The position numbers and the translations under genes were made by a program. Below the pieces are notes generated by a model, which saw only the letters and a list, made by a program, of their open reading frames with translations, was not told where the DNA came from and did not search any database. From Candidatus Mailhella excrementigallinarum (lineage in GTDB: Bacteria; Desulfobacterota; Desulfovibrionia; Desulfovibrionales; Desulfovibrionaceae): DNA of 38,972 nucleotides. This document shows, piece by piece, positions 7,271 through 30,112 of the stretch. Position 1 is the stretch's first letter. Every line of letters begins with the position of its first letter. The DNA is taken from NCBI GenBank assembly GCA_944324075.1, contig CALUUZ010000027.1, positions 1 to 38,972 on the forward strand. The letters are read 5' to 3'.

Positions 7271-8263
7271 TCAGTTCCAGACATGGCGGATATAGGGCTG
7301 AATGACGGCAAGTGTCTTTTCCGGCGGCAGATCCACAGTTGCGCCGGCAGCGTTCCTGTGTCCGCCTCCGCCGAACTGCGCGGCAACCTTGCGCACATCG
7401 TCCGCGCCGCTGGAACGCAGACTGACCCTGGTCATGATCCGGCCGTCCTTTTCCACTTCGCGCAACAAAAGAGCCACGCGCACGCCCTTTATCCTGCGCA
7501 GTTGCTCCACAAAGCCTTCAGCGTCTTCCCTGAGCGCGCCGTACTCATCCGGCAGAGAGCGGCTGATCAGCGCCACGCCGAGCCTGCCGCCGTCGAGGAT
7601 ACGGACGTCGCTCATCAGGCGTCCCCACAGACGCAGTTTGCCTTCCGACCAGTTGTTGTCCAGCTTGGCGCGGATGCCGGCGATGTCCAGTCCGCCTTCC
7701 AGCAGGCGGGCCGCCATGCGCAGGGTGGAAGGCCGGGTATTGCCGTAGGCGAAGGAACCGGTGTCGGACACCAGCGCCACATACACGGCCTCTGCCAGAG
7801 CGCCTTCCAGCGGCAGTTCCAGCGCTTCGGCGAGATGTCCGATCATTTCACCCGTGGCGGGCATGGCGGGGTCAACCCAGTTCGCGGCGCTGCCGTATTC
7901 CGGGTTGCCCGGGTGATGGTCGATATTCACCACCGGAACTTCGCGCAGTAGCCCTTGGATGCCTTCGCCCAGACGCGCGGCGTCGCCGCTGTCCAGCGCG
8001 ACGACCAGCCCCGGCTTGCCGGGCAGGGCCGAGATGTCCCGCAGCACGGGGCTGGGAAGACGCAGCCAGCCCAGATAGTCTGGAAAGCCGGTTTCGTTGT
8101 ACAGCAGCACCTCCTTGCCCAGCGTGCGGAGCGTCCAGCCCAGCGCCGCGCTGGCGCCGGCGGCATCGCCGTCGGGGTTGGCGTGGGCCGCGATCAGAAC
8201 GCGGTCGTGGCTCTTCAGCGCCGCAAGCAGAGTTTCCGGCACAGTGACGGTTGAATCTCGCAT
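7271..8263 (-). CDS. nrnA: DHH/DHHA1 phosphoesterase, NrnA-like (oligoribonuclease / pAp phosphatase)
   Basis: A 330-residue DHH-family phosphoesterase. NrnA-type enzymes degrade 2-5 nt RNA fragments and dephosphorylate 3'-phosphoadenosine 5'-phosphate. The N-terminal motif AHANPDGD places H27, D31 and D33 as metal ligands. The DHH motif is VNIDHHPGN near residue 108. The C-terminal DHHA1 substrate motif GGGGHRNAAG is near residue 305. The ATG at 8263 is chosen because GAGGAG lies 5 bases upstream; an upstream in-frame start would run into the DUF503 gene. The function as pAp phosphatase or nanoRNase is inferred from the family. Confidence 0.88.
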   Translation of the reverse strand: MRDSTVTVPETLLAALKSHDRVLIAAHANPDGDAAGASAALGWTLRTLGKEVLLYNETGFPDYLGWLRLPSPVLRDISALPGKPGLVVALDSGDAARLGEGIQGLLREVPVVNIDHHPGNPEYGSAANWVDPAMPATGEMIGHLAEALELPLEGALAEAVYVALVSDTGSFAYGNTRPSTLRMAARLLEGGLDIAGIRAKLDNNWSEGKLRLWGRLMSDVRILDGGRLGVALISRSLPDEYGALREDAEGFVEQLRRIKGVRVALLLREVEKDGRIMTRVSLRSSGADDVRKVAAQFGGGGHRNAAGATVDLPPEKTLAVIQPYIRHVWN

Positions 8264-12717: not shown

Positions 12718-13302
12718 CTATGCGCTGAGGTAGCTGGAGATCATGGCGTCGTAGCGCGAGGTGGCCGCAAAGGTCAGGGCCGCCATGCGTTTGCGGAAGG
12801 CGAGATCCACGCCGCCTGTTTCAATCCGGGCACGGGCCTCGTCATAGTACCTGGGGTCGGACACCACGAGGATGCTGTGGAAGTTCTTGGCCGAGGCGCG
12901 CAGCAGGCAGGGGCCGCCGATATCGATTTCCTCCACCATGTCGCGGAGCGGGAGTTTTTTTTCCAGTGCGGAGGCGAAGTCGTAAAGATTCACGCACACC
13001 AGATCAAAAGGTGTGATGTCGTGTTCCTTCAGTGTGGCGAGGTGTTCGGGCTTGTCCTTGTCGGCCAGGATGCCGCCGTGAATTTTGGGGTGCAGCGTCT
13101 TGACGCGGCCGCCCAGAATCTCCGGGAAGCCGGTGACGTCGCTCACCGCCGTGACGGGCAGCCCCTGTTCCTTCAGGAATTTCATGGTTCCGCCGGTAGA
13201 TACCAGTTCCACCCCCCTGTCGTGCAGGAAGCGGGCGAATTCCGCCAGGCCGTCCTTGTGGGTCACGCTCAGGAGCGCGCGCCGGATGGGCAGACGATCC
13301 AT
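12718..13302 (-). CDS. purH: IMP cyclohydrolase (N-terminal half of PurH only)
   Basis: A 194-residue protein matching only the MGS-like IMP cyclohydrolase domain of PurH, which closes FAICAR to IMP in the last step of purine synthesis. Visible family motifs are the opening RRALLSVTHKDGLAEFARFL, VELVSTGGT, GFPEILGGRVKTLHPKIHGGIL and the VNLYDF segment. The AICAR transformylase half (about 320 residues) is absent and the gene ends cleanly with TAG, so this is a split architecture, not a truncation. The formyltransferase must be encoded elsewhere. GGGGA lies about 7 bases before the ATG. Confidence 0.92.
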   Translation of the reverse strand: MDRLPIRRALLSVTHKDGLAEFARFLHDRGVELVSTGGTMKFLKEQGLPVTAVSDVTGFPEILGGRVKTLHPKIHGGILADKDKPEHLATLKEHDITPFDLVCVNLYDFASALEKKLPLRDMVEEIDIGGPCLLRASAKNFHSILVVSDPRYYDEARARIETGGVDLAFRKRMAALTFAATSRYDAMISSYLSA

Positions 13303-14020: not shown

Positions 14021-15490
14021 TTATTTTTTCATGATCAGCCCTGCCGCGGCCTGCTCGTTTTCCATACGTCTGACAATATCGCGGGTGGCGAAGCTGCCCA
14101 CCGTGCCGCAGGAAATATTGGCCAGCAGGTCAATATGGCCGCCGGTGGAAAGCCTGGCAAGGTTGACGCTCTTGTTGCCGTCCGCATCTTCAAAATGCCA
14201 GGCGTTGATCCGGGTTCCGTCAAAGTCGTCGATCACGATCTTGAAATAGCCGTTGGGACCAACAAACACGTTGTTGGCGCTGTCCAGAACCACTTCTTCC
14301 TTGTTGGTGAGAAGGATTTCGTTCAGCTCTCCGCAGGAGGCTCAGGTGTCCGGGCGGGCCAGGAAGCGTGGATCCGAAGGCCATTCCTGCGGGTTTCCGA
14401 TTTCATAGATGTCGGTGTATATGTCGAGGAAAACCCTGCCGTTCTGTACCACCCCGCCGGGCCTGAGCATGGCCAGCTGTACGCTGATTTTTCCGTCCGG
14501 AGAGTTGAGCTGCCACTTCGCGCGGTCATGGGCGCTGCTGGGCAGATAATCCAGAACGGAGGAGTCGTCCAGTCCCCTGAAGGTTTTTTCCGTGACGCTG
14601 CCGTTTTCTTCCGTCAGACGAAGGCTCACGGCCGAAGGAGAAACAGCCAGCACGTCAACTCTGGCCCCGCCTGCTGCTGCGCTGTCTCCTGGAGCGTATG
14701 CGCCGGAAATGCGGGGCGCGGAACTCAGCCAGATGCGGGTGAGGCTGGGAGTGCCGAATTCCTTGATGCTGATCTCGTCCATGCCCGCCTTCTCGGCAAT
14801 GAGATAGGACTGCCCGCTGGGATAGGTGGAGCTGGTGAAGTAGGTATTATGCTGGAGCGGACTGGTCTTGTCCGCGGGAAGAGGGTATCTGCCTTCGGGC
14901 AGGCCCAGGCCGTCATTGTATTTGCCGGAGGAAAAATCTTTCAGCGTGGGACTGATGGCCACGGTAAAATTGGTGCCGTAATAGTTGCCCGACGCTTTCA
15001 TGATGCGCACGGTGGCCGAGTTTGCCGCGTTGCCGTAAGGGTGTCCCTTGCTCGCCGTAAACTGGAGCAGACGCGACCCGTCCTCATGCAGCTTGAGAGA
15101 CTCGCCCAGTTTCAGCTTGCGGTTTTTGACGATAATGTACTCGTACTCTTCGTTGACTACGGGCTGACGCTTGCCGAGCATGACGACATCCAGCCCTGTC
15201 ATGGTGCCGATGCTGCCCAGACGTGAGGAATAGTACAGTCCTTCCGGCGGGATGATGATTTTGCCCTTGTCAATATGGCTTTTGCGGATCACCACTCCTT
15301 CATTGATGGTGCGTTTGCCGATGTAGAGATCCAGATCATAGGATTTAAAGCCAGGCACCCTGGCGATGATCGCCGCGGAACGCGCCGGGGCCTCGCACAG
15401 AGCGGATTCCGCGCCCTGCGCGCCTGCTGGCGAAAGGGCTGTCAGAACCAGCCCTCCCGCCAGCAGGCCGAGAATATGACTTTTTTTCAT
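14021..15490 (-). CDS. Exported protein of unknown family with one in-frame TGA; candidate selenoprotein with UxxC motif
   Basis: The gene starts at ATG 15490 with GGAGGT 6 bases upstream and encodes a signal peptide (MKKSHILGLLAGGLVLTALS, cleavage near 24-27). Codon 383 is TGA (14344-14342), and the same frame stays open for another 106 codons to TAA at 14021, giving 489 residues if TGA is read as Sec. The residues around it read PDT-U-ASC-GEL, a UxxC arrangement like a redox CxxC. Only three other Cys occur (C32, C386, C461). The part after the TGA is protein-like (VFVGPNGYFKIVIDDFDG, ISCGTVGSFATRDIVRRM). SelB is encoded in this window. Alternatives are a recent nonsense mutation, or re-initiation at GTG 14293, which has AAGGA 4 bases upstream. 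I do not recognise the family, and the biochemical role is unknown. Confidence 0.6.
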
Positions 15491-15557
15491 GGAGAAACCT
15501 CCGGTTATGGGGTGAACCGGGTAAACCCGGAAAGAAACAGTATGTATGCCGTGCGGC

Positions 15558-15946: not shown

Positions 15947-16157
15947 AGAGCGTTTTGCTTTTGAACATATCTGCGGGCCGGGACTCTGTTCCCGGCCCGC
16001 AGGTTTCACGCCTCCATCGGAGCAGCCGCAATTCGCTTGCGGCTGCTCCGGTGTCGCGGCGCCCCTGGCCGTCAGCGCATGGCGCTTCACGGATAAGAAG
16101 CGGAGATGAGTCTCGCCCCGCTTGACTCCATAGAGCACTTCATGAGCGAAATCCTCT
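15947..16157 (+). repeat. Repeat family A, copy 3 (long form, best preserved)
   Basis: At 211 bases it begins AGAGCGTTTTGCTTTTGAAC and ends, inverted, as AGAGGATTTCGCTCATGAA. Inside are a palindrome around GCGGGCCGGGA / TTCCCGGCCCGC, the core GGTTTCACGCCTCC, a second palindrome GGAGCAGCCGCAATTCGC / GCTTGCGGCTGCTCC, and a block ending GTCTCGCCCCGCTTGACTCC. The right edge touches the TAG stop codon of the outer-membrane-factor gene, and the left edge lies 26 bases from the operon's terminator. Confidence 0.8.
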
Positions 16158-17667
16158 ATGCTCCGGGAGAAACCTTCGCGGCCGGAGCCGCAGGCCGGCT
16201 GTCGTCTTCCCATCCGCCGCCAAGGGCCATGCACACGTTGATGATGGAGGTAAGATGGGCCGCGCGGGTGCTGGCAAGCTGGATTTCCGCCTCGAACAGG
16301 GAGCGTTCGGCGTCCAGCACGTCCAGATACGAGGCATAGCCGTTGTCATAGCGCAGGCGGGCCAGATCCGTTGCCTTGCGCAGACTGTTCACCGAGTCGT
16401 TCAGCGCTCTCACCACATACACGGTACGATCCTGGATGGTCAGCGCGTCGCGCACTTCCTGAAATGCCTGCTGGACAGCCAGCACATAGCTTGCGGCGGC
16501 TTCGCGCTGAGCTGCTTCGCTGGCCTTCACATTGCTGGAAATACGCCCGAAGGTCAGGATCGGCAGATTGATGCCTCCGCCGATGTTCCAGATATTTGTG
16601 GCGCTCTCGAACAGGTGGTCAAGCTCGCTGCTCTGCGTGCCGAGCTGGCCGGTCAGGGAGATGGACGGGAACCATTCCGCCCTGGCCGCGCCGATTTTGA
16701 AGTTTGCCGCCTTGAGCTGGGCTTCCGCCGCGATGAGATCAGGGCGGCGTTCCAGCAGGTCGGAAGGCATGCCCACGGGCAGTTGCGGCGCGCTGGGCAT
16801 GGCGTCCAGTTCGAGTCCCCGCTCCGGCGAGGTCTCGAAAATATCGCGCGGGGATCGGCCGGTCAGCACCATGAGGGCGCTTTCCGCCGTGGCTACCTGA
16901 TACTGCGCCGTGTACAGGCTGGCCCGCACGCTGTCCACTTCCGTCTTGGCCCGCAGGAAGTCCAGTTCGCTGATCAGCCCTTCATCGAAACGGGCGCGGT
17001 AGATCTTCAGAGCCTCCTCGCGGGAGGCCAGCGTCCGTTTGGCAATGGCGAGCTGGGCATCATAGCTGCGCAGGCTGATATAGGCCGAAGCGGTCTGCCC
17101 GGCCAGGCTGAGCACCACGCCGCGCTGTCCGGCTTCCGAGGCCAGCAGTTGTTCGCGCGCGGCGGCGGTGGAGTTGCGCACCCTGCCCCACAGATCCATT
17201 TCCCACACGGCCTGGAGGCCGAGGGAGAAGGAGTTGTTGACGCGATCGGGCGCAATGGAGGGATTTTTGAGGATCTCGCTGATGGCTGTACCCGCCGCGA
17301 TGTCGCCTTCCGTCACTCTGGCGCGTCCGGCACTGCCGGAACCGGAAAGGGTGGGAAAGTAATCGGCTCTGGCCAGCCCCAGATAGGCCCTGGCCTGATC
17401 CACGCGGGCGACGGCCGCCGCAAGATTCTGGTTATGCAGCAGCGCTTCTTCCACCAGCTTGTCCAGCACGGGATCATTGAAGCGTTTCCACCACTGGACT
17501 TCAAGACTCCTTGTCGCCATGGGCAGACTGTAGGGAGCCTTGCTCCATGTTTCGGGGATGTCCATCGCCGGGCGGTTGTAGTCCGGGGCGAAGGAACAGC
17601 CGGACAATGCCATGCCCGAGATCAGGCAGAGCGCCGCGCCCGTGCGCCGGAATGCAGTACCAGTCAT
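16156..17667 (-). CDS. RND efflux outer-membrane factor lipoprotein (NodT/OprM family)
   Basis: A 503-residue TolC-like outer-membrane channel that completes the tripartite pump with the two genes upstream. The lipoprotein signal ends in LSGC, with the lipid-carrying cysteine near residue 24. Two homologous OEP repeats follow, with the family signatures WWKRFNDPVLDKLVEEAL and LARADYFPTLSGSGS in the first half and RPDLIAAEAQLKAANFKIG and RAEWFPSISLTGQLG in the second. The ATG at 17667 is chosen because GGGGAG lies 7 bases upstream; an ATG at 17682 would overlap the pump gene by 14 bases. The stop is TAG, and a repeat begins at once after it. Confidence 0.93.
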   Translation of the reverse strand: MTGTAFRRTGAALCLISGMALSGCSFAPDYNRPAMDIPETWSKAPYSLPMATRSLEVQWWKRFNDPVLDKLVEEALLHNQNLAAAVARVDQARAYLGLARADYFPTLSGSGSAGRARVTEGDIAAGTAISEILKNPSIAPDRVNNSFSLGLQAVWEMDLWGRVRNSTAAAREQLLASEAGQRGVVLSLAGQTASAYISLRSYDAQLAIAKRTLASREEALKIYRARFDEGLISELDFLRAKTEVDSVRASLYTAQYQVATAESALMVLTGRSPRDIFETSPERGLELDAMPSAPQLPVGMPSDLLERRPDLIAAEAQLKAANFKIGAARAEWFPSISLTGQLGTQSSELDHLFESATNIWNIGGGINLPILTFGRISSNVKASEAAQREAAASYVLAVQQAFQEVRDALTIQDRTVYVVRALNDSVNSLRKATDLARLRYDNGYASYLDVLDAERSLFEAEIQLASTRAAHLTSIINVCMALGGGWEDDSRPAAPAAKVSPGA

Positions 17668-17668
17668 G

Positions 17669-20600
17669 TCAGTTCTCCCCATCAGCCGGCCTGGCCGCCG
17701 GAGTTTTGCGTCCTCCCGCCTTCTCGGCGGCGGACATGATGATTTTGTAGAAAAAGGGAACGATAAGCGGAGCGAGTGTGGAGGCCGCCAGCATGCCGAA
17801 CACCACGCTGATGCCGATGGCCCGGCGGCTGGATGCGCCGGCTCCGGTGCTGACGGCCAGCGGCACGCAGCCCAGAATGAAGGCCAGCGAGGTCATGATG
17901 ATGGGCCGGAAGCGCAGCTTGGCGGACTGCACGGCCGACTCGATGACGCTCATGCCCTGCCTGTGCAGATCCGCCGCGAATTCCACAATCAGAATGGCGT
18001 TCTTGCAGGCCAGACCGAGCAGGGTGAAGAAGGCCACCTGCGTATACACGTCGTTGTTCTGTCCGGTCAGCCAGTTGCCGACAATGGCTCCGAACACCGC
18101 GAAGGGCACGGCGGTGAGCACGGCCAGAGGCAGGGTCCAGCGCTCATACTGGGCGGCAAGAATGAGGAAGACCATGAGCAGGGCCAGACCAAGCACCGAG
18201 AAGTCCGTGCCGCCGGTCACCACTTCCTGGTAGCTGGAGCCGGACCACGCCAGAGAATAGCCCTGCGGCAGCACCTGGGCGCAGACCTCCTGCATGGCCT
18301 GGAGAGCCTGCCCGGAACTGTAGCCGGAAGCGGGATTGCCGGTCACCTTGGCTGCCAGCAGGCCGTTGAAGTGGGTAACGAGCTGCGGGCCGCTGTCATT
18401 GTGAATGGTGACCAGCGAAACCAGGGGAATATTGTTGCCGTCGCGGCTCTGCACATAGATGCTGCCCATTTCGTCCGGCAGGGAACGGTAGGGCGCGTCC
18501 GCCTGCATATACACGCGGAAGGTGCGGCCGTTCATGTTGAAGTCGTTGATGTAGGACGCGCCGAGCGTGGCGGCCATGGTGTTGAACACATCGGCCACGT
18601 TGACGTTGAGCATGCGGGCCTTTTCCCGGTCAAGGTCGACATAGAGACGCGGGGAGTTCACGCTGTAGGTGCTGCTCACGCCGGAAAGCTCGGGACGTTT
18701 GGCCGCCTCGGCGGTAACGGCGCGGACGATGTCGGAAAGCTCCTTGGGGTTGTCCTCATTGGACATGATCATGGCTTCAAAGCCGCCGGTATTGCTCAGG
18801 CCCATGATGGGAGGCGGGTTGAAGGGCAGGATCAGGCCCTTGGTTTCGGCCATGCCGATGCCGTATATCCTGCCGATGGTATCCTGCACGCTGATGCCCA
18901 TTTTTTCGCGTTCCGCCCAGTCCTTGAGGGTGACGAACATGACGCCGGAGTTGGTGTTCAGCGCACCGTTCATCAGGTCGAAACCGGCTACGGAGAGCAG
19001 GCTCTCCACTTCGGGCAGTTCCTGAATCTTCGCCGCCACACTGTCCATGACCTCAATGGTCTGGGGCAGGGCCGTGCCGTCGGGCATCATGCCCATGACC
19101 AGAATGGAGCCCTGGTCTTCCTCGGGCACCAGCGCGGTGGGGACGCGGCCGAAGATGTCCCATGTGGCCGCGCACACGGCGGCAACCACAAGGAGGGTAA
19201 TGACGCTGCGCCTGATGAAGAAGCGCACGCCGTCCGTAAAGCGGTCGGTGAGATGTTCAAATGCCGTGTTGAACCAGCGGAAGAACCGGTTCGGCTGCTT
19301 GTGCGACTTCTTGATCAGCATGACGCACAACGTGGGAGTGAGGGTCAGCGCCACGATGCCCGACAGGGTGACGGAAATGGCGATGGTAATGGCGAACTGC
19401 CGGTACATCACGCCCGCCAGACCGCCCATGAAGCCCACAGGGATGAACACGGCGCACAGCACCAGCACAATGGCGATGACCGCGCCGGTCACTTCGTGCA
19501 TGGCCTTGGCTGTGGCCTGGCGCGGCGTGAGGTCCTCGGTTTCCAGTATGCGGGCCATGTTCTCCATGACCACGATGGCGTCGTCGACCACGATGCCGAT
19601 GGCCAGCACCAGGGCGAAAAGCGTCAGGGTGTTGATGGAAAAGCCCAGCGCGTAGATGCCCGCAAAGGTGCCCACCAGGGAAATGGGCACGGCAATGCAG
19701 GGAATGAGCGTGGCCTCCCATTTCTGAAGGAAGAGATACACCACCACGAACACCAGGAACATGGCTTCCACCAGAGTATGGATGACCTCTTCGATGGAGA
19801 TTTTCACGAAGGTCGTGGTATTGTAGGGAATGGAGTATTCAATCCCGGTGGGAAACGCCTTGGACACCTCCTCGAAGTAGGCTTCCACCCGCTGCGCCGT
19901 ATCCAGCGCGTTGGCGCCGGTGCCGAGGTACACCGCGATGGGCACGGCAAGTTTGCCGTCGGTGCGGCCCTGGGCGGAATAATCCTTTGCGCCGAGTTCC
20001 ACACGGGCCACGTCCTTGAGGCGCAGCACGCCGCCGTCGGGCGTGGTGCGCAGGATGATATTGCCGAATTCCTCCGGCGTGGTCAGGCGGCCGAGACCGC
20101 TGACCTGCCATGTCATCTGGATTTCGTCCGAGCTGGGCATGGCCCCTACGGAGCCGAAGGAGTACTGGTTGTTCTGATCTTTAACGGCCTGGCCGATTTC
20201 CGCCGTGGTCAGACCGAGCTGAGCCATGCGCTGGGGGTTGAGCCAGACGCGGATGGCATAGTCCTTGGAACCCATGATTTCCGCGTTGCCCACCCCGGGG
20301 ATGCGCTTGAGGCCGTCCATGATATAGAACAGCGCGTAGTTGCTGAGATAGGTATCGTCATAGACGCCTCCGTCGGAGGACAGCGAGGCCACCAGCAGGA
20401 AGGAGGAAGACTGCTTTTTCACCGTCACGCCGTACTGGCGCACGATGTCGGGCAGACCGGCCTGAGCGGCCTGCACGCGGTTGTTCACGTTGACGGTGGC
20501 CATGTCGGGGTCCGTGCCGATTTCAAAGTACACGTTCATCGACATGGTTCCGCTGGTGGAGCACACCGTGTTCATGTAAATCATGCCGTCCACGCCGTTC

Positions 20601-20851
20601 ATCTGCGCCTCAATGGGCTGGGCGACGCTCTGGGCGATGGTTTCGGGCGTCGCGCCGGGATACTGCGCGGCTACCTGCACGGAGGGCGGAGTAAGTTCGG
20701 GATACTGGGAGATGGGCAGCTTGCCGATGGCCAGAACGCCGAGCAAAATCATGAAAATGGAGATGACCGCGGAGAACACGGGCCGTTTCAGAAAGAATCC
20801 TTCCTGAATGGGGGCCTGATCCAGCGGGGATTTATTTGAGGTCTGGGACAT
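17669..20851 (-). CDS. RND efflux inner-membrane pump (HAE1/AcrB family)
   Basis: A 1060-residue proton-driven multidrug exporter of the hydrophobe/amphiphile class with 12 transmembrane helices and two large periplasmic loops. The N-terminus contains FFLKRPVFSAVISIFMILLG and the family motif KLPISQYPELTPP. The proton-relay aspartates are in GIVVDDAIVVMEN (about D423/D424, corresponding to AcrB D407/D408). GFMGGLAGVMYRQFAITI and the C-terminal RFRPIIMTSLAFILGCVPL segment are also typical. The start is 3 bases after the adaptor stop, and the stop is 1 base before the next start. The substrates are not predictable. Confidence 0.96.
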   Translation of the reverse strand: MSQTSNKSPLDQAPIQEGFFLKRPVFSAVISIFMILLGVLAIGKLPISQYPELTPPSVQVAAQYPGATPETIAQSVAQPIEAQMNGVDGMIYMNTVCSTSGTMSMNVYFEIGTDPDMATVNVNNRVQAAQAGLPDIVRQYGVTVKKQSSSFLLVASLSSDGGVYDDTYLSNYALFYIMDGLKRIPGVGNAEIMGSKDYAIRVWLNPQRMAQLGLTTAEIGQAVKDQNNQYSFGSVGAMPSSDEIQMTWQVSGLGRLTTPEEFGNIILRTTPDGGVLRLKDVARVELGAKDYSAQGRTDGKLAVPIAVYLGTGANALDTAQRVEAYFEEVSKAFPTGIEYSIPYNTTTFVKISIEEVIHTLVEAMFLVFVVVYLFLQKWEATLIPCIAVPISLVGTFAGIYALGFSINTLTLFALVLAIGIVVDDAIVVMENMARILETEDLTPRQATAKAMHEVTGAVIAIVLVLCAVFIPVGFMGGLAGVMYRQFAITIAISVTLSGIVALTLTPTLCVMLIKKSHKQPNRFFRWFNTAFEHLTDRFTDGVRFFIRRSVITLLVVAAVCAATWDIFGRVPTALVPEEDQGSILVMGMMPDGTALPQTIEVMDSVAAKIQELPEVESLLSVAGFDLMNGALNTNSGVMFVTLKDWAEREKMGISVQDTIGRIYGIGMAETKGLILPFNPPPIMGLSNTGGFEAMIMSNEDNPKELSDIVRAVTAEAAKRPELSGVSSTYSVNSPRLYVDLDREKARMLNVNVADVFNTMAATLGASYINDFNMNGRTFRVYMQADAPYRSLPDEMGSIYVQSRDGNNIPLVSLVTIHNDSGPQLVTHFNGLLAAKVTGNPASGYSSGQALQAMQEVCAQVLPQGYSLAWSGSSYQEVVTGGTDFSVLGLALLMVFLILAAQYERWTLPLAVLTAVPFAVFGAIVGNWLTGQNNDVYTQVAFFTLLGLACKNAILIVEFAADLHRQGMSVIESAVQSAKLRFRPIIMTSLAFILGCVPLAVSTGAGASSRRAIGISVVFGMLAASTLAPLIVPFFYKIIMSAAEKAGGRKTPAARPADGEN

Positions 20852-20854
20852 GTG

Positions 20855-22132
20855 CTATTCCGCCTGGGTCTTGCCGCTGCCGGCGTTTTCGTCTTCGGGG
20901 AGAGCGGTGAGGGTGGTTTCGCCCGCGCCTCCTTCCGGCGGGGTGATCGAATCGGGAGTGGGGAGAGCCGTTTCCCGCGAGGGACGCGGCACAGGCCTGC
21001 CCTGCACGGGAGAGCCGGGACGCACCTTGTTGGTGCCTTCCACCACAACCACGGAGCCGGGTTCAAGCCCTTCATCCACAATGAATTCATTGCCGAAGAT
21101 TTCGCCCAGCTTCACGGGCGTCAGCGTGGCTGTGCCGTCCTTGCCCACGGTGTAGACCATGGTGCCCTGCGCCGTATTCATCACCGCCGTCTGGGGAATC
21201 ATGATCACATCCACCAGCATGGTGCCGCCGATGGTGACGGAAGCATACTGGCCGGGCAGCAGGGAACTTTCCGGGTTGGGGAACTGCGCGCGGGCGCGGA
21301 CTACGGAAGTCTGCGGCTCCACCTGCGTATCCACAAAGGTGACAAAGCCGGGATACGGGTACGTTCCTCCCTCCAGCATGGTCAGACGGGCGGGCGTGCC
21401 CTCCGTGGAAAGTTTCGCCTTGCCCTGGGCCGTCAGGCGCTTCATGCGCATCATGTCCGCGCTGGGAATGGCGAAGGTGACGTACATGGGGTCGGTCTGG
21501 TTGATGGTGGTGAGCAGGCTCCCCTGGGAATCCAGCGTGATCAGATCGCCCTCGTCACGCGCGGCCAGACTGGTATAGCCGGAAATGGGAGCCACCACAT
21601 TGGTGTAGTCCAGTTGAATCTGCGCTTCGTTCACCCGCGCCTGCGCCGAAGCCACCTGCGCCCTGGCGCTGTCAAAGGCGGCCTTGGCGGTATCGCGGTC
21701 TTTCTGGCTGACGGCGTTGCGGGAATAGAGCGGCTGGATACGGTTCCATTCGCGCTGGGCGTTGGCATATTCGGTCTGGGCCACGGTCAGCTGGGCCTTG
21801 GCCTGATCCAGCGCGGCCTGGGCCGAGGCCGGGTCGATTTCAAACAGTGTCTGCCCCTGATAGACGTAATCGCCTTCCTTGAAGAAGCGGCGTTTCAGAA
21901 TGCCGGAGATCTGGGCGCGCACCTCGACCGACAGATAGCCGAGCGTCTGCCCCATATAGGTGGACTGAAGCGGCACGTTTTCTTTGCGGAGTTCCATGGT
22001 GCCGACCAGGGGAGGCGGCGTCTGGGACGCGGCCTGCTTGTCCTTGTCGTCAAAGCAGGCCGTGAGGCTGAGCGCCATGGTTACGAGCAGGGCGGCGGAA
22101 AGGCCGCGGGAAACAGTGGCATGAGAGCGCAT
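20855..22132 (-). CDS. RND efflux periplasmic adaptor lipoprotein (AcrA/MexA family)
   Basis: A 425-residue membrane fusion protein linking pump and outer-membrane channel. The start at 22132 has AAGGAG 6 bases upstream, and the signal ends in a lipobox LTAC near residue 26. In order are the barrel-sandwich half GYLSVEVRAQISGILKRRFF, a coiled-coil hairpin (DQAKAQLTVAQTEYANAQRE to ARVNEAQIQLDYTN), and VVAPISGYTSLAARDEGDL. The beta-barrel segment comes last. The tail after residue 370 is Pro/Thr/Glu-rich and probably disordered. It is the first gene of the pump operon. Confidence 0.95.
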   Translation of the reverse strand: MRSHATVSRGLSAALLVTMALSLTACFDDKDKQAASQTPPPLVGTMELRKENVPLQSTYMGQTLGYLSVEVRAQISGILKRRFFKEGDYVYQGQTLFEIDPASAQAALDQAKAQLTVAQTEYANAQREWNRIQPLYSRNAVSQKDRDTAKAAFDSARAQVASAQARVNEAQIQLDYTNVVAPISGYTSLAARDEGDLITLDSQGSLLTTINQTDPMYVTFAIPSADMMRMKRLTAQGKAKLSTEGTPARLTMLEGGTYPYPGFVTFVDTQVEPQTSVVRARAQFPNPESSLLPGQYASVTIGGTMLVDVIMIPQTAVMNTAQGTMVYTVGKDGTATLTPVKLGEIFGNEFIVDEGLEPGSVVVVEGTNKVRPGSPVQGRPVPRPSRETALPTPDSITPPEGGAGETTLTALPEDENAGSGKTQAE

Positions 22133-22311
22133 GAACGACTCCTTGATCTGAAGGGGGCAAAGCCCGTAACGGCGCGTGAACGGGGTATTCCGGACGGCCG
22201 GGTGTGTATGGACAGGCTCGCGTGTTGCGGCCATAATGAATGCCTGAACATGATGTTTCCCTTAGCATGAGCGGCATGAGCCGTCCATGAGAGGGGGATG
22301 CGGAGGCGGAA

Positions 22312-22485
22312 ATGAATCCTTTTGTTGTGCGCGGCATTCTCATCGGCGGATCACTCGGCGTTTTCGCCGCGCTGGCCGGCGTGGTGGACAATATGCCCAG
22401 GGCCTTCGGACTGGGCATGCTCGGCGGTTTTTTCGCCGGCCTTACCCTGGCCAGAATGCGCAGAGGCAAGGCGCCGCTTGAGTGA
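22312..22485 (+). CDS. Small two-helix membrane protein, 57 residues
   Basis: This short gene starts at ATG 22312 with GGAGG 5 bases upstream and ends at TGA 22485. The product begins MNPFVVRGILIGGSLGVFAA and has two hydrophobic segments (about residues 4-23 and 32-49) separated by VVDNMPRAFG, with a basic tail RMRRGKAPLE. Gly-rich, small-residue helices suggest tight packing. It is divergent from the efflux operon and antisense to the last 135 bases of the TetR frame. I do not recognise a family. The good start site and membrane-protein composition favour a real gene over chance. Confidence 0.6.
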   Translation: MNPFVVRGILIGGSLGVFAALAGVVDNMPRAFGLGMLGGFFAGLTLARMRRGKAPLE

Positions 22486-23190
22486 GCCGGCGCGCCGCCC
22501 TGTGCGGGGCGGCCGGAAAGACCTCGCGCCGTCATGCCTTTTGGAAAGAAAACCCCGCAGCAGAAGATCGAACATGCGCATCCCGTGTTCCACTTCCTGC
22601 CTGAGGCCGTCTTCGCTGTCGGGATATTTCTGCTCGACCTGATCGGCGATTTCCCGGATACGGTGGATGTTGAAGGGAAAGGGGGTGTCCATCCTCAGGG
22701 TGGGCAGGAACACGCCGGGCATGACGGCCATGAATATTTCGGCGGGAGAAACATCCCTGCGCAGATCTCCCCTGCGCCATGCGTCCTCCATCAGCCCATA
22801 CATGATGCGGGTATGGCTGTTGCGTTCCTGCAGAATTTCCGAAACAACCGGTTCGTCCGCGTAGGCATCGCAGATGAGATTGCGCAGGGTCAGCCTGCCC
22901 TCTATGGTGTGGCGCAGGCAGACGCGCACTCCCCGGCGCAGGCGGTCCAGCGGTGCATCGGTTCCGCGCGCGCTTTCTTCCACCTCGCGGGAGAAGTTCT
23001 TGTAGCCCCGCACCAGCAGGGTGCGGACAAAGTTGTCCTTGCTTTCAAAGTAGTAGTTCAGCATCCGGGGGCTTACCCCGGCTCTGGCGCAGACAGCGCG
23101 CACGGAAAGCCCCCGTACTCCCTTGAGACGGAGTTCCTCCTCCCCGGCTTCAAGCAGGGCGAGATCAAGCTGCTGTGAAGGTCTGGCCAT
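22351..23190 (-). CDS. TetR family transcriptional regulator
   Basis: A repressor-type regulator encoded just upstream of, and on the same strand as, the RND efflux operon, its probable target. The N-terminal helix-turn-helix reads VRGLSVRAVCARAGVSPRMLNYYFESKDNF (residues 24-53 of the MARPSQQ start), which is characteristic of TetR. The start at 23190 is chosen by domain alignment; no clear Shine-Dalgarno is present. The frame gives 280 residues, while the family usually has 190-220. The last 60 residues (after GFLSKRH) are low-complexity and basic and lie opposite the small membrane-protein gene, so the natural end may once have been near 22530. The ligand is unknown. Confidence 0.85.
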   Translation of the reverse strand: MARPSQQLDLALLEAGEEELRLKGVRGLSVRAVCARAGVSPRMLNYYFESKDNFVRTLLVRGYKNFSREVEESARGTDAPLDRLRRGVRVCLRHTIEGRLTLRNLICDAYADEPVVSEILQERNSHTRIMYGLMEDAWRRGDLRRDVSPAEIFMAVMPGVFLPTLRMDTPFPFNIHRIREIADQVEQKYPDSEDGLRQEVEHGMRMFDLLLRGFLSKRHDGARSFRPPRTGRRAGSLKRRLASAHSGQGKAGEKTAEHAQSEGPGHIVHHAGQRGENAE

Positions 23191-23212
23191 ATGAAACGTT
23201 TGTATAAAAATG

Positions 23213-23240
23213 TTGCAAACCGTTACATTATAATTTGCAA
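23213..23240. promoter_or_regulatory. Candidate TetR operator
   Basis: TTGCAAA (23213-23219) and TTTGCAA (23234-23240) form a perfect 7-bp inverted repeat with a 14-base spacer. It lies 23 bases upstream of the tetR start, downstream of the predicted promoter, which is the typical place for autorepression. A smaller palindrome AAACGTTT lies at 23194-23201. I do not see the TTGCAAA motif in front of the efflux operon. Confidence 0.45.
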
Positions 23241-23269
23241 AAATCATTGAACCTCAAGAGTCAGAGGTT

Positions 23270-28168: not shown

Positions 28169-30112
28169 TCAGGAAACCCGGCCCCGGAGCTGGCGCCTGT
28201 CGCCCACGCGCATGGTAAAGCGTTCCCGGTCAAAATATTCCAGCAGGGGAATAAGGTACTTGCGGGTCAGCCCTCCCGTCACCTCCTTGAAATCGCCGGG
28301 GGTCAGGTCATCATGGCTCTCAAACCAGGCACGGGTACGTTTTTTCAGATCCTCGACAGCGGCGGCATCATACCACAGACCTTCGGAAACCTTGACCAGC
28401 GCGCCTTCCTGCTGGAGCAGCCGCAGGACGGGCGCTGCCTCCTTGAGGGTGACGCCCAGCTCCTCAAGCACATCCTTGAGATTGGGCGGCGTCATGGGCG
28501 CGGCCCGGTGAGCTTCCACCAGTTTCTCCCGCAGCGCGCTCTGATCGGAAGCCAGAGAAACCCGGTGATCCGCCAGTCGCAGCAGTTCGCCTTCCGCCAC
28601 CAGCGCTCCCGAGCGGATCAGTTTTTCCAGCATGAAGTGCGCCAGCCTGGGCGGAACCTGAGCGGGAATGAGCACGCCCTTGGCCATGCCCGGCTTGAGC
28701 GGTTCGCGCTTGTGGAATTCCGCCGCGCGGGCCAGCACCGCGTCGGAAAGCTTTTGCAGAGCCGGGGCCGCAATCCATGCACGCCCTTCTCTGTCGTAAC
28801 AGGCAATGCGCCCTTTGCCGGACAGCGTCTGCACCAGTTTTTCCAGACGCCGGGCTTCCAGGTTGGTCAGCACGGAAAGCGCGGCCTGCGTTGCGCCGTG
28901 CGGCCCGGCCAGTTCCAACTGGGTGACGAGGCGATCTTCCTCTCCTGTCTGATCGACGGCATCCGGCATGGTCAGCAGTTTTTCCCGCATGTGCGGCGTC
29001 ATATCACGGCGGCGCGGGGCGCTGTCCAGAGGGATGAGCACGGAGCCGCCCGCCACGGTGCGCAGAGGGGAAAAGGCGCGGATGACACAGCGGTCGCCGA
29101 ATACGCCCGCCATGCGTGTTTCCTCCCCGTTTTCCGGGGAGAAACGCACTTCCGCCAGCGCGGTTTCACCGGGAGCGAGCTTGTCGCGATCATAGAAGTA
29201 GAGGCGCGCGGGCACTTCTTTCGCGCCGTGGTGGAAATGGATTTCCGCCCTGTGGCGCAGAGCGCGGGGCGAGGAGGAAAGGCATCTGAGGGAAAGCACC
29301 CAGCGCGAAGAGGGAAAAAGCGTGCCGGGCCGGGCGATGACGTCCCCGCGATGGATATCTTCCACATCAAGACCGGCAAGATTGATGGACGTGCGGTGTC
29401 CGGGCGTGGCTTCCTCCACGTCCGTGCCGTGGGTCTGGATGCTGCGGATGCGCGAAAGCCTGCGGGAAGGCAGAAGCTCGACATCGTCGCCGGGTTTCGC
29501 CTTTCCGGAAATGAGCGTGCCCGTTACCACCGTGCCGTGGCCCCTGAGGGTGAAGACGCGATCCACAGGCAGGCGGAACAGATCCTGGCGGCGTCTGGGG
29601 GCAAGTTCCCTGCTCTGCGCACGGATGGCCTGACGCAGGGCTTCCAGCCCCTCTCCGGTCACGGAGGAAACGGGAAAGATGGACGAACCTTCCAGGAAGG
29701 TTCCCTCCAGAAAAGAGGCCACGTCCTCTTTTGCCAGTTCCAGCAGATCGGGGTCGACCATGTCGATCTTGGTCAGCGCCACCATGCCGTGGCGGATGCC
29801 GAGCAGAGAGCATATTTCCAGATGTTCACGGGTCTGGGGCATGACGCCCTCGTCCGCAGCGATGACCAGCAGCACAAAATCGATGCCCGCCGCTCCGGCC
29901 ACCATGTTGCGCACAAAGCGTTCATGGCCCGGCACATCCACCACGCCCATGCGCTCGCCGTCGGGCAGGGTGAAGTAGGCGAAGCCCAGTTCAATGGTAA
30001 TGCCCCGGCGCTTTTCCTCTTCCAGGCGATCGCAGTCGATGCCGGTGAGCGCGCGCACAAGGCTGGTCTTGCCGTGGTCGATATGTCCGGCGGTGCCCAT
30101 GATGACGGCCAT
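28169..30112 (-). CDS. selB: Selenocysteine-specific translation elongation factor SelB
   Basis: A 647-residue protein that carries Sec-tRNA(Sec) to ribosomes paused at UGA next to a SECIS hairpin. The GTPase domain has G1 GHIDHGKT (9-16), [14 protein letters not shown]3 DVPGHE and G4 TKIDM. EF-Tu-like domains II and III follow ([17 protein letters not shown]). The C-terminal 250 residues form the winged-helix repeats that bind SECIS RNA, ending [19 protein letters not shown], a typical SelB terminal motif. AAGGAG lies 6 bases before the ATG. No selA, selD or tRNA(Sec) lies next to it in this window. Its presence implies that the genome encodes selenoproteins. Confidence 0.96.

Follow-up and report, generated by a model that had tools for sequence, protein, structure and literature searches.

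The 38,972-nt window analysed here (positions 1 to 38,972 of contig CALUUZ010000027.1 from the Candidatus Mailhella excrementigallinarum assembly GCA_944324075.1) carries on its minus strand a gene at 14021..15490 that runs from ATG to TAA and contains one in-frame TGA, at codon 383 (14342..14344). The comparisons below indicate that this UGA is almost certainly decoded as selenocysteine (Sec), so that the product would be an exported selenoprotein, 489 residues long and belonging to a family not yet described. The gene limits were set by translation and by near-full-length homologues, and a ribosome binding site, GGAGG (15498..15502, minus strand), lies seven bases before the ATG. The TGA, in the protein context RPDT-U-ASC, is followed by 106 codons without a further stop and opens a U-A-S-C motif of the redox-type UxxC pattern (14333..14344, minus strand). 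The original prediction had described this 489-codon frame with its one TGA and 106 following codons without naming the strand; translation bore out the coordinates and placed the gene on the minus strand. It had also counted three other cysteines besides that of the motif, while the translation gives three in all: C32, C386 (within the motif) and C461. Residues 1 to ~24 (15419..15490, minus strand) were read by eye as a signal peptide, and residues 1–5 and 7–25 of a structure model have a predicted local distance difference test score (pLDDT) below 50. From the earlier proposal of a periplasmic or outer-membrane protein, export is retained on this reading of the N-terminus, and the compartment is not narrowed further.

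An open frame past the TGA is not evidence by itself, because such frames are ordinary by chance in a window of 61% GC. In the window eight frames split by a TGA, this gene among them, have 380 or more open codons ahead of it and 106 or more behind it, and 20 of the 91 stop-ended frames longer than 150 codons continue for at least 106 open codons past their stop. These counts speak for the alternative that the TGA arose by a recent nonsense mutation or through faulty sequencing, leaving a pseudogene or a 382-residue protein. A chance open frame was ruled out because homologues share the TGA column. Among 59 genomes searched, the window's own included, matches were found in 15, many with exactly one in-frame TGA, and in the aligned homologues the TGA fell in one shared column with the motif UASC or UATC. 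A wide scan of one genome per species, covering 84,980 species, yielded 31 homologous loci (loci, genomes and contigs of the window's genome are designated below by L, G and C numbers), at which the column of residue 383 holds TGA in 19, Cys in 9 and nothing else, the remaining three not reaching the column. The Cys forms read CAEC in two Mailhella and CGHC in tandem-domain proteins. Records with the Sec form came from Mailhella, Candidatus Bilophila faecipullorum, uncultured Desulfovibrio, Desulfovibrionaceae bacterium and Desulfocarbo indianensis, and from two bins labelled Bacillota and Pseudomonadota, labels that may be wrong. Alignment at codon 383, the check that the original prediction had proposed, thus gave TGA or Cys and never Trp or Arg.

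Searches at higher ranks extended this distribution. At the level of the order the family was found in 36 of 348 genomes, with 21 one-TGA matches in 18 genomes, and among 395 genomes drawn evenly from the phylum 10 had it, again including the window's own. Three more forms, with the motif USTC, came from another taxonomic family (G537, G619 and G399); a fourth match of the phylum draw, G514, is the L049 genome again, as judged by coordinates. A divergent homologue on the reverse strand of L129 (1330–1950, genome G428) has a TGA at the equivalent site with the motif U-P-Q-C, and it is possibly a separate Sec branch.

The part of the protein behind the TGA is also the better conserved one. Identity to the window protein was greater after the TGA (residues 384–469) than before it (residues 30–382) in 23 of 23 comparisons, for example 0.66 vs. 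0.58 and 0.60 vs. 0.34. Downstream of the TGA the nonsynonymous substitution rate (dN) was below the synonymous rate (dS) in all pairs with computable dS (10 of 11); the upstream parts in these pairs include a few codons preceding the start. Selection on the coding sequence after the UGA, one of the marks by which a selenoprotein is recognised, was therefore found. In all 24 alignment rows Cys or Sec stands at positions 383 and 386, and no other cysteine column is retained throughout. Since many genomes share the TGA and its downstream part is conserved under purifying selection, a recent nonsense mutation or sequencing error is extremely improbable, and the original prediction's preference for selenocysteine over this alternative is upheld. 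Gene finders that take TGA as a stop would be expected to cut such genes to ~382 codons and to lose the conserved end.

In a tree of 33 rows (midpoint root), the distribution of Sec vs. Cys requires 2 changes. The window gene lies within an all-Sec clade of five rows (support 100/100). Both CAEC forms branch from among Sec forms, suggesting that they reverted from Sec to Cys.

The machinery for selenocysteine decoding is encoded in the same genome. The Sec-specific elongation factor SelB, which acts in trans, is encoded in the window itself, as had been claimed (28169..30112, minus strand; TIGR00475, 347.1 bits vs. a cut-off of 242.25). SelA (580 bits) and SelD, the latter carrying its own in-frame TGA, were found in the genome together with a tRNA-Sec match of 85 bits. 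The tRNA-Sec model also exceeded its cut-off in 5 of the 14 control genomes and at another site of the window's genome (48 bits); the tRNA-Sec referred to here is the 85-bit match. With SelA, SelB, SelD and tRNA-Sec, the full set expected of a genome with a selenoprotein is in place.

Alternatively, a conserved UGA might be a programmed stop at which another amino acid, such as Trp or Cys, is sometimes inserted, so that both a short and a long form are made. Bacterial Sec insertion can be inefficient and a short form may coexist, which counts for this explanation, as does the failure of the window gene to fit a strict hairpin model (see below). However, recoding as Trp or Arg was rejected, as neither residue occurs in any homologue covering the site, where only TGA or Cys is found. 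Of 28 genomes examined for SelB, 27 had it above cut-off, and each of the 17 Sec-form genomes in this set was among the 27 (the set does not contain seven further TGA-form genomes, G011, G173, G202, G399, G428, G537 and G619); the RNA after the UGA is more structured in Sec genes than after the Cys codon in Cys genes. On this evidence a programmed stop is very improbable.

The RNA comparison was made on 52 sequences, reduced to 40 distinct ones (20 Sec and 20 Cys) by dropping repeats and cut-off rows; the folding energy from +12 to +66, counted from the first TGA base, was compared with synonymous resampling of each gene's own codons. The mean z was −2.34 in the Sec and −0.89 in the Cys sequences (Mann–Whitney p 3.3e-5, not kinship-corrected); p-values of this kind are only a guide because the sequences are related. 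In a sliding control the peak lay at +12 to +66, where the Sec genes had a mean of −2.36 with z < −1 in 20 of 20, and the Cys genes a mean of −0.91 with z < −1 in 11 of 20. At the family level, RNA structure downstream of the UGA thus exceeds codon expectation, another mark of a selenoprotein. Hairpins with loops starting 31 to 36 bases past the UGA were predicted in all 20 Sec sequences, the only ones folded. In the window gene, the region resembling a selenocysteine insertion sequence (SECIS) lies at 14276..14332 on the minus strand, with its loop 36 nt after the TGA and an energy of −15.9 kcal/mol. A second structure peak was observed upstream of the UGA, at −60, with a mean z of −2.15 and 16 of the 20 Sec genes showing it; in the window it covers 14351–14404, from 60 to 7 bases ahead of the TGA, and in homologues the equivalent positions, and a consensus structure was looked for in it and none found. 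Windows of the Sec genes outside both peaks (offsets up to −114 and from +30 onwards) had z between −0.74 and 0.62.

Several RNA results weigh against decoding as selenocysteine. For the window gene alone z was −1.4, with 9% of synonymous resamplings equally stable. The strict bacterial SECIS (bSECIS) model, as set out in the review PMC13188914, demands a G in the first two loop bases, a spacing of 16–37 and at most −7.5 kcal/mol. The window gene does not satisfy it, reaching only −0.5 kcal/mol, and in a check by our own script, limited to minimum free energy hairpins, the model was passed by 5 of the 20 Sec genes and by 2 of the 20 Cys genes. RNAalifold gave no consensus over the 20 Sec sequences, with almost no energy. 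A single consensus SECIS structure was accordingly rejected, the stem register differing between subfamilies. The same review states that some selenoprotein genes fail the bSECIS model (PMC13188914), and failure therefore does not exclude a selenoprotein. No known RNA family at its gathering score and no tRNA gene was found in the window. Taken with the shared TGA column, the conserved end and the complete machinery, decoding of codon 383 as selenocysteine is retained as almost certain.

The family itself could not be assigned to a known one. Pfam gave no match above cut-off in 24 family members, NCBIfam gave none to the window protein at E up to 1, and a search of PDB sequences returned one match, at E 0.65 only; the earlier remark that the family was not recognisable therefore stands. 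Matches to NosL, Ig-like and S-layer Pfam entries were below cut-off, in one of the 24 members each, and were rejected; the S_layer_N match was confined to L050 (8.6e-5, 22.4 bits vs. a cut-off of 27), and none of 8 genomes was above cut-off in a direct search. The window protein is predicted to be mainly beta (model pLDDT 85.5), and neither a thioredoxin fold nor a thioredoxin family model was recovered, given this model and the lack of Pfam and NCBIfam matches. The best Foldseek hit of the model (E 1.4e-3, TM ~0.1) was not used, and a viral structure library gave nothing usable. As the whole 489-residue model was searched and not single domains, we do not claim that the fold is new. No selenoprotein family listed in Table 1 of PMC13188914 was matched, as checked through NCBIfam and Pfam only, the cd and PTHR models of that table lying partly outside this check. 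Among the papers listed in the literature, no title or abstract opening points to the family, and no paper was found that combines Mailhella with selenocysteine. As far as sequence comparison tells, the family is undescribed.

The neighbourhood of the family was then compared at 32 places, namely the 31 loci and the window, some of them with short flanks and L065 with none upstream. A molybdopterin oxidoreductase, a small secreted helix-hairpin-helix (HhH, ComEA-like) protein or both were found in the same locus at 22 of the 32. Two gene orders were seen, HhH–selenoprotein–molybdopterin subunit–iron-sulfur (FeS) subunit–cytochrome b561, and molybdopterin subunit–FeS–b561–HhH–selenoprotein; around the tandem Cys form the order is molybdopterin subunit–FeS–NrfD–HhH–tandem protein–YeiH-type transporter, with arylsulfotransferases nearby. 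The molybdopterin subunit has a twin-arginine-like start and, in 16 of 17 rows (L050 excepted), a conserved Cys at the presumed metal-ligand place, the identity of the ligand being itself inferred. None of the four molybdopterin proteins scanned reached a substrate-specific NCBIfam cut-off.

The HhH proteins have a C-terminal feature in common, with exceptions. In 13 of 13 aligned rows the last residues are Cys-X-Cys (CxC), the same tail closes the HhH proteins of L059, L063, L073, L112, L114 and L115, and among the HhH tails listed from 30 loci it was present in 21 of 21. Examples beside the family or the molybdopterin operon are L051:5445-5777, L058:4200-4517 and L060:4136-4474. Four HhH matches without this end lie by arylsulfotransferase genes (one in L113, two in L165 and one in L168). 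At L050, which has no HhH gene, an unrelated 124-residue lipoprotein (7658-8029) between the selenoprotein gene and the molybdopterin operon ends in ESCDC, and a secreted 102-residue neighbour at L049 (5462-5767) ends in a single Cys. Across the 348 genomes of the order, among the matches listed, at least 37 had an HhH match reaching the profile end, 36 had the family and 34 had both (Fisher p 2.9e-41, not kinship-corrected and with not all tails read).

In the window's genome these parts are dispersed. C27 carries the Sec gene and C2 a tandem Cys form together with YeiH; a CxC-tail protein stands alone at C4:147993-148271, and a molybdopterin–FeS–b561 operon lies on C25 from 32366, its molybdopterin subunit 60% identical. 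Two N-terminal pieces of the family at the ends of C4 and C5 (L109:3-506 and L110:5629-6039) end at the same residues and are probably copies split by the assembly.

Elsewhere in the window, a PurH-like frame at 12718-13302 (minus strand) combines the MGS domain with an AICARFT part limited to the first 58 of 311 positions, and would encode an IMP cyclohydrolase without transformylase. Upstream of the selenoprotein gene, 665 bases off, lies an efflux set of the resistance-nodulation-division (RND) type (16156-23247, minus strand) with an outer-membrane factor, a membrane-fusion protein and a TetR regulator; the RND pump was named by reading alone.

For the protein we propose a role as an exported thiol or sulfur redox relay, to which we give somewhat less than an even chance. 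In this scheme, with UGA 383 decoded as selenocysteine by the SelA/SelB/SelD/tRNA-Sec machinery, a mainly beta exported scaffold would present the Sec383–Cys386 pair, cycling between selenylsulfide and selenol-thiol. The pair could exchange electrons or sulfur with the CxC tail of the small secreted HhH carrier, the selenylsulfide being reduced or formed by this exchange, and in many relatives the molybdopterin complex, with its Tat-type start and its FeS and membrane subunits, might connect the pair with either the quinone pool or a sulfur substrate. The window copy would be a stand-alone paralogue of the operon-linked form, with the other parts elsewhere in the genome.

The role is opposed by several observations. 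Ten places have neither a molybdopterin nor an HhH neighbour (the window, L045–L049, L055–L057 and L065), and these include the window copy and the other four members of its clade. In genome G014 (96% complete) a Sec copy is present while no close orthologue of the molybdopterin subunit was found, and G115 has the HhH protein and the molybdopterin operon with no family member detected; because of these exceptions the links among family, molybdopterin enzyme and HhH protein are not strict. At L166, in G115, the CxC-tail protein adjoins the molybdopterin–FeS–b561 operon, and it may belong primarily to the molybdopterin complex. A different function, which would leave selenocysteine decoding untouched, is that the UxxC pair is no redox centre and instead coordinates a metal or another ligand, or has a structural part in a protein of the surface-layer-like kind. 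Where Sec replaces Cys, the residue is usually catalytic or redox-active, and the neighbourhood with an oxidoreductase and a CxC-tail protein recurs; both speak against a metal-binding or structural pair, which we regard as unlikely, though not negligibly so.

Taking the relay role further, the family, the HhH CxC carrier and the molybdopterin complex may together form an unrecognised exported redox or sulfur system built on a UxxC/CxxC beta-sandwich protein, possibly with an S-layer-like fold, a proposal that we make tentatively. With the same reserve we put forward that such a system occurs in genomes whose labels span several phyla, and that its tandem-domain version would add the YeiH-type transporter as well as arylsulfotransferases. 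If true, the selenoprotein would be a redox hub between carrier and enzyme with a fold unlike that of thioredoxin-type UxxC proteins. The finding itself adds to the known selenoproteins a family that is not of the thioredoxin fold and that occurs both in gut-dwelling relatives of sulfate reducers and in further bacteria. It also gives a handle on a recurring gene neighbourhood in which the Sec/Cys pair, the CxC tail and the molybdopterin enzyme would make a directly testable relay.

Among known systems, flexible cysteines that pass electrons or sulfur occur in the CxC shuttle tail of yeast Erv2 and in the C-terminal cysteine carrier arms of SoxY and DsrC; by analogy the C-terminal cysteines of the HhH protein may be alike, whereas the candidate carrier here is a secreted helix-hairpin-helix protein. 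The neighbouring molybdopterin proteins resemble PhsA/PsrA- and formate dehydrogenase-type molybdoenzymes in their PF04879, PF00384 and PF01568 domains, twin-arginine-like start, FeS subunit and cytochrome b561 or NrfD partner, but the four scanned reach no NCBIfam equivalog cut-off. To our knowledge, the Methanosarcina S-layer domain DUF1608 is not known as a selenoprotein or redox protein. With this domain (PF07752; PDB 3u2h, 3u2g) no sequence match above cut-off was found in any of 7 genomes, in a search whose control, Methanosarcina acetivorans, was detected, and none of the 24 members matched PF07752 even at E up to 1. The bacterial UxxC selenoproteins in Table 1 of PMC13188914 include thioredoxin, DsbG-like, DsbA-like, Prx-like and other proteins. 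The new family shares with known UxxC selenoproteins a Sec three residues ahead of a Cys, Cys homologues and the Sec machinery; unlike them, it is predicted to be mainly beta, is exported and matches no family model, and many of its members adjoin a molybdopterin oxidoreductase operon.
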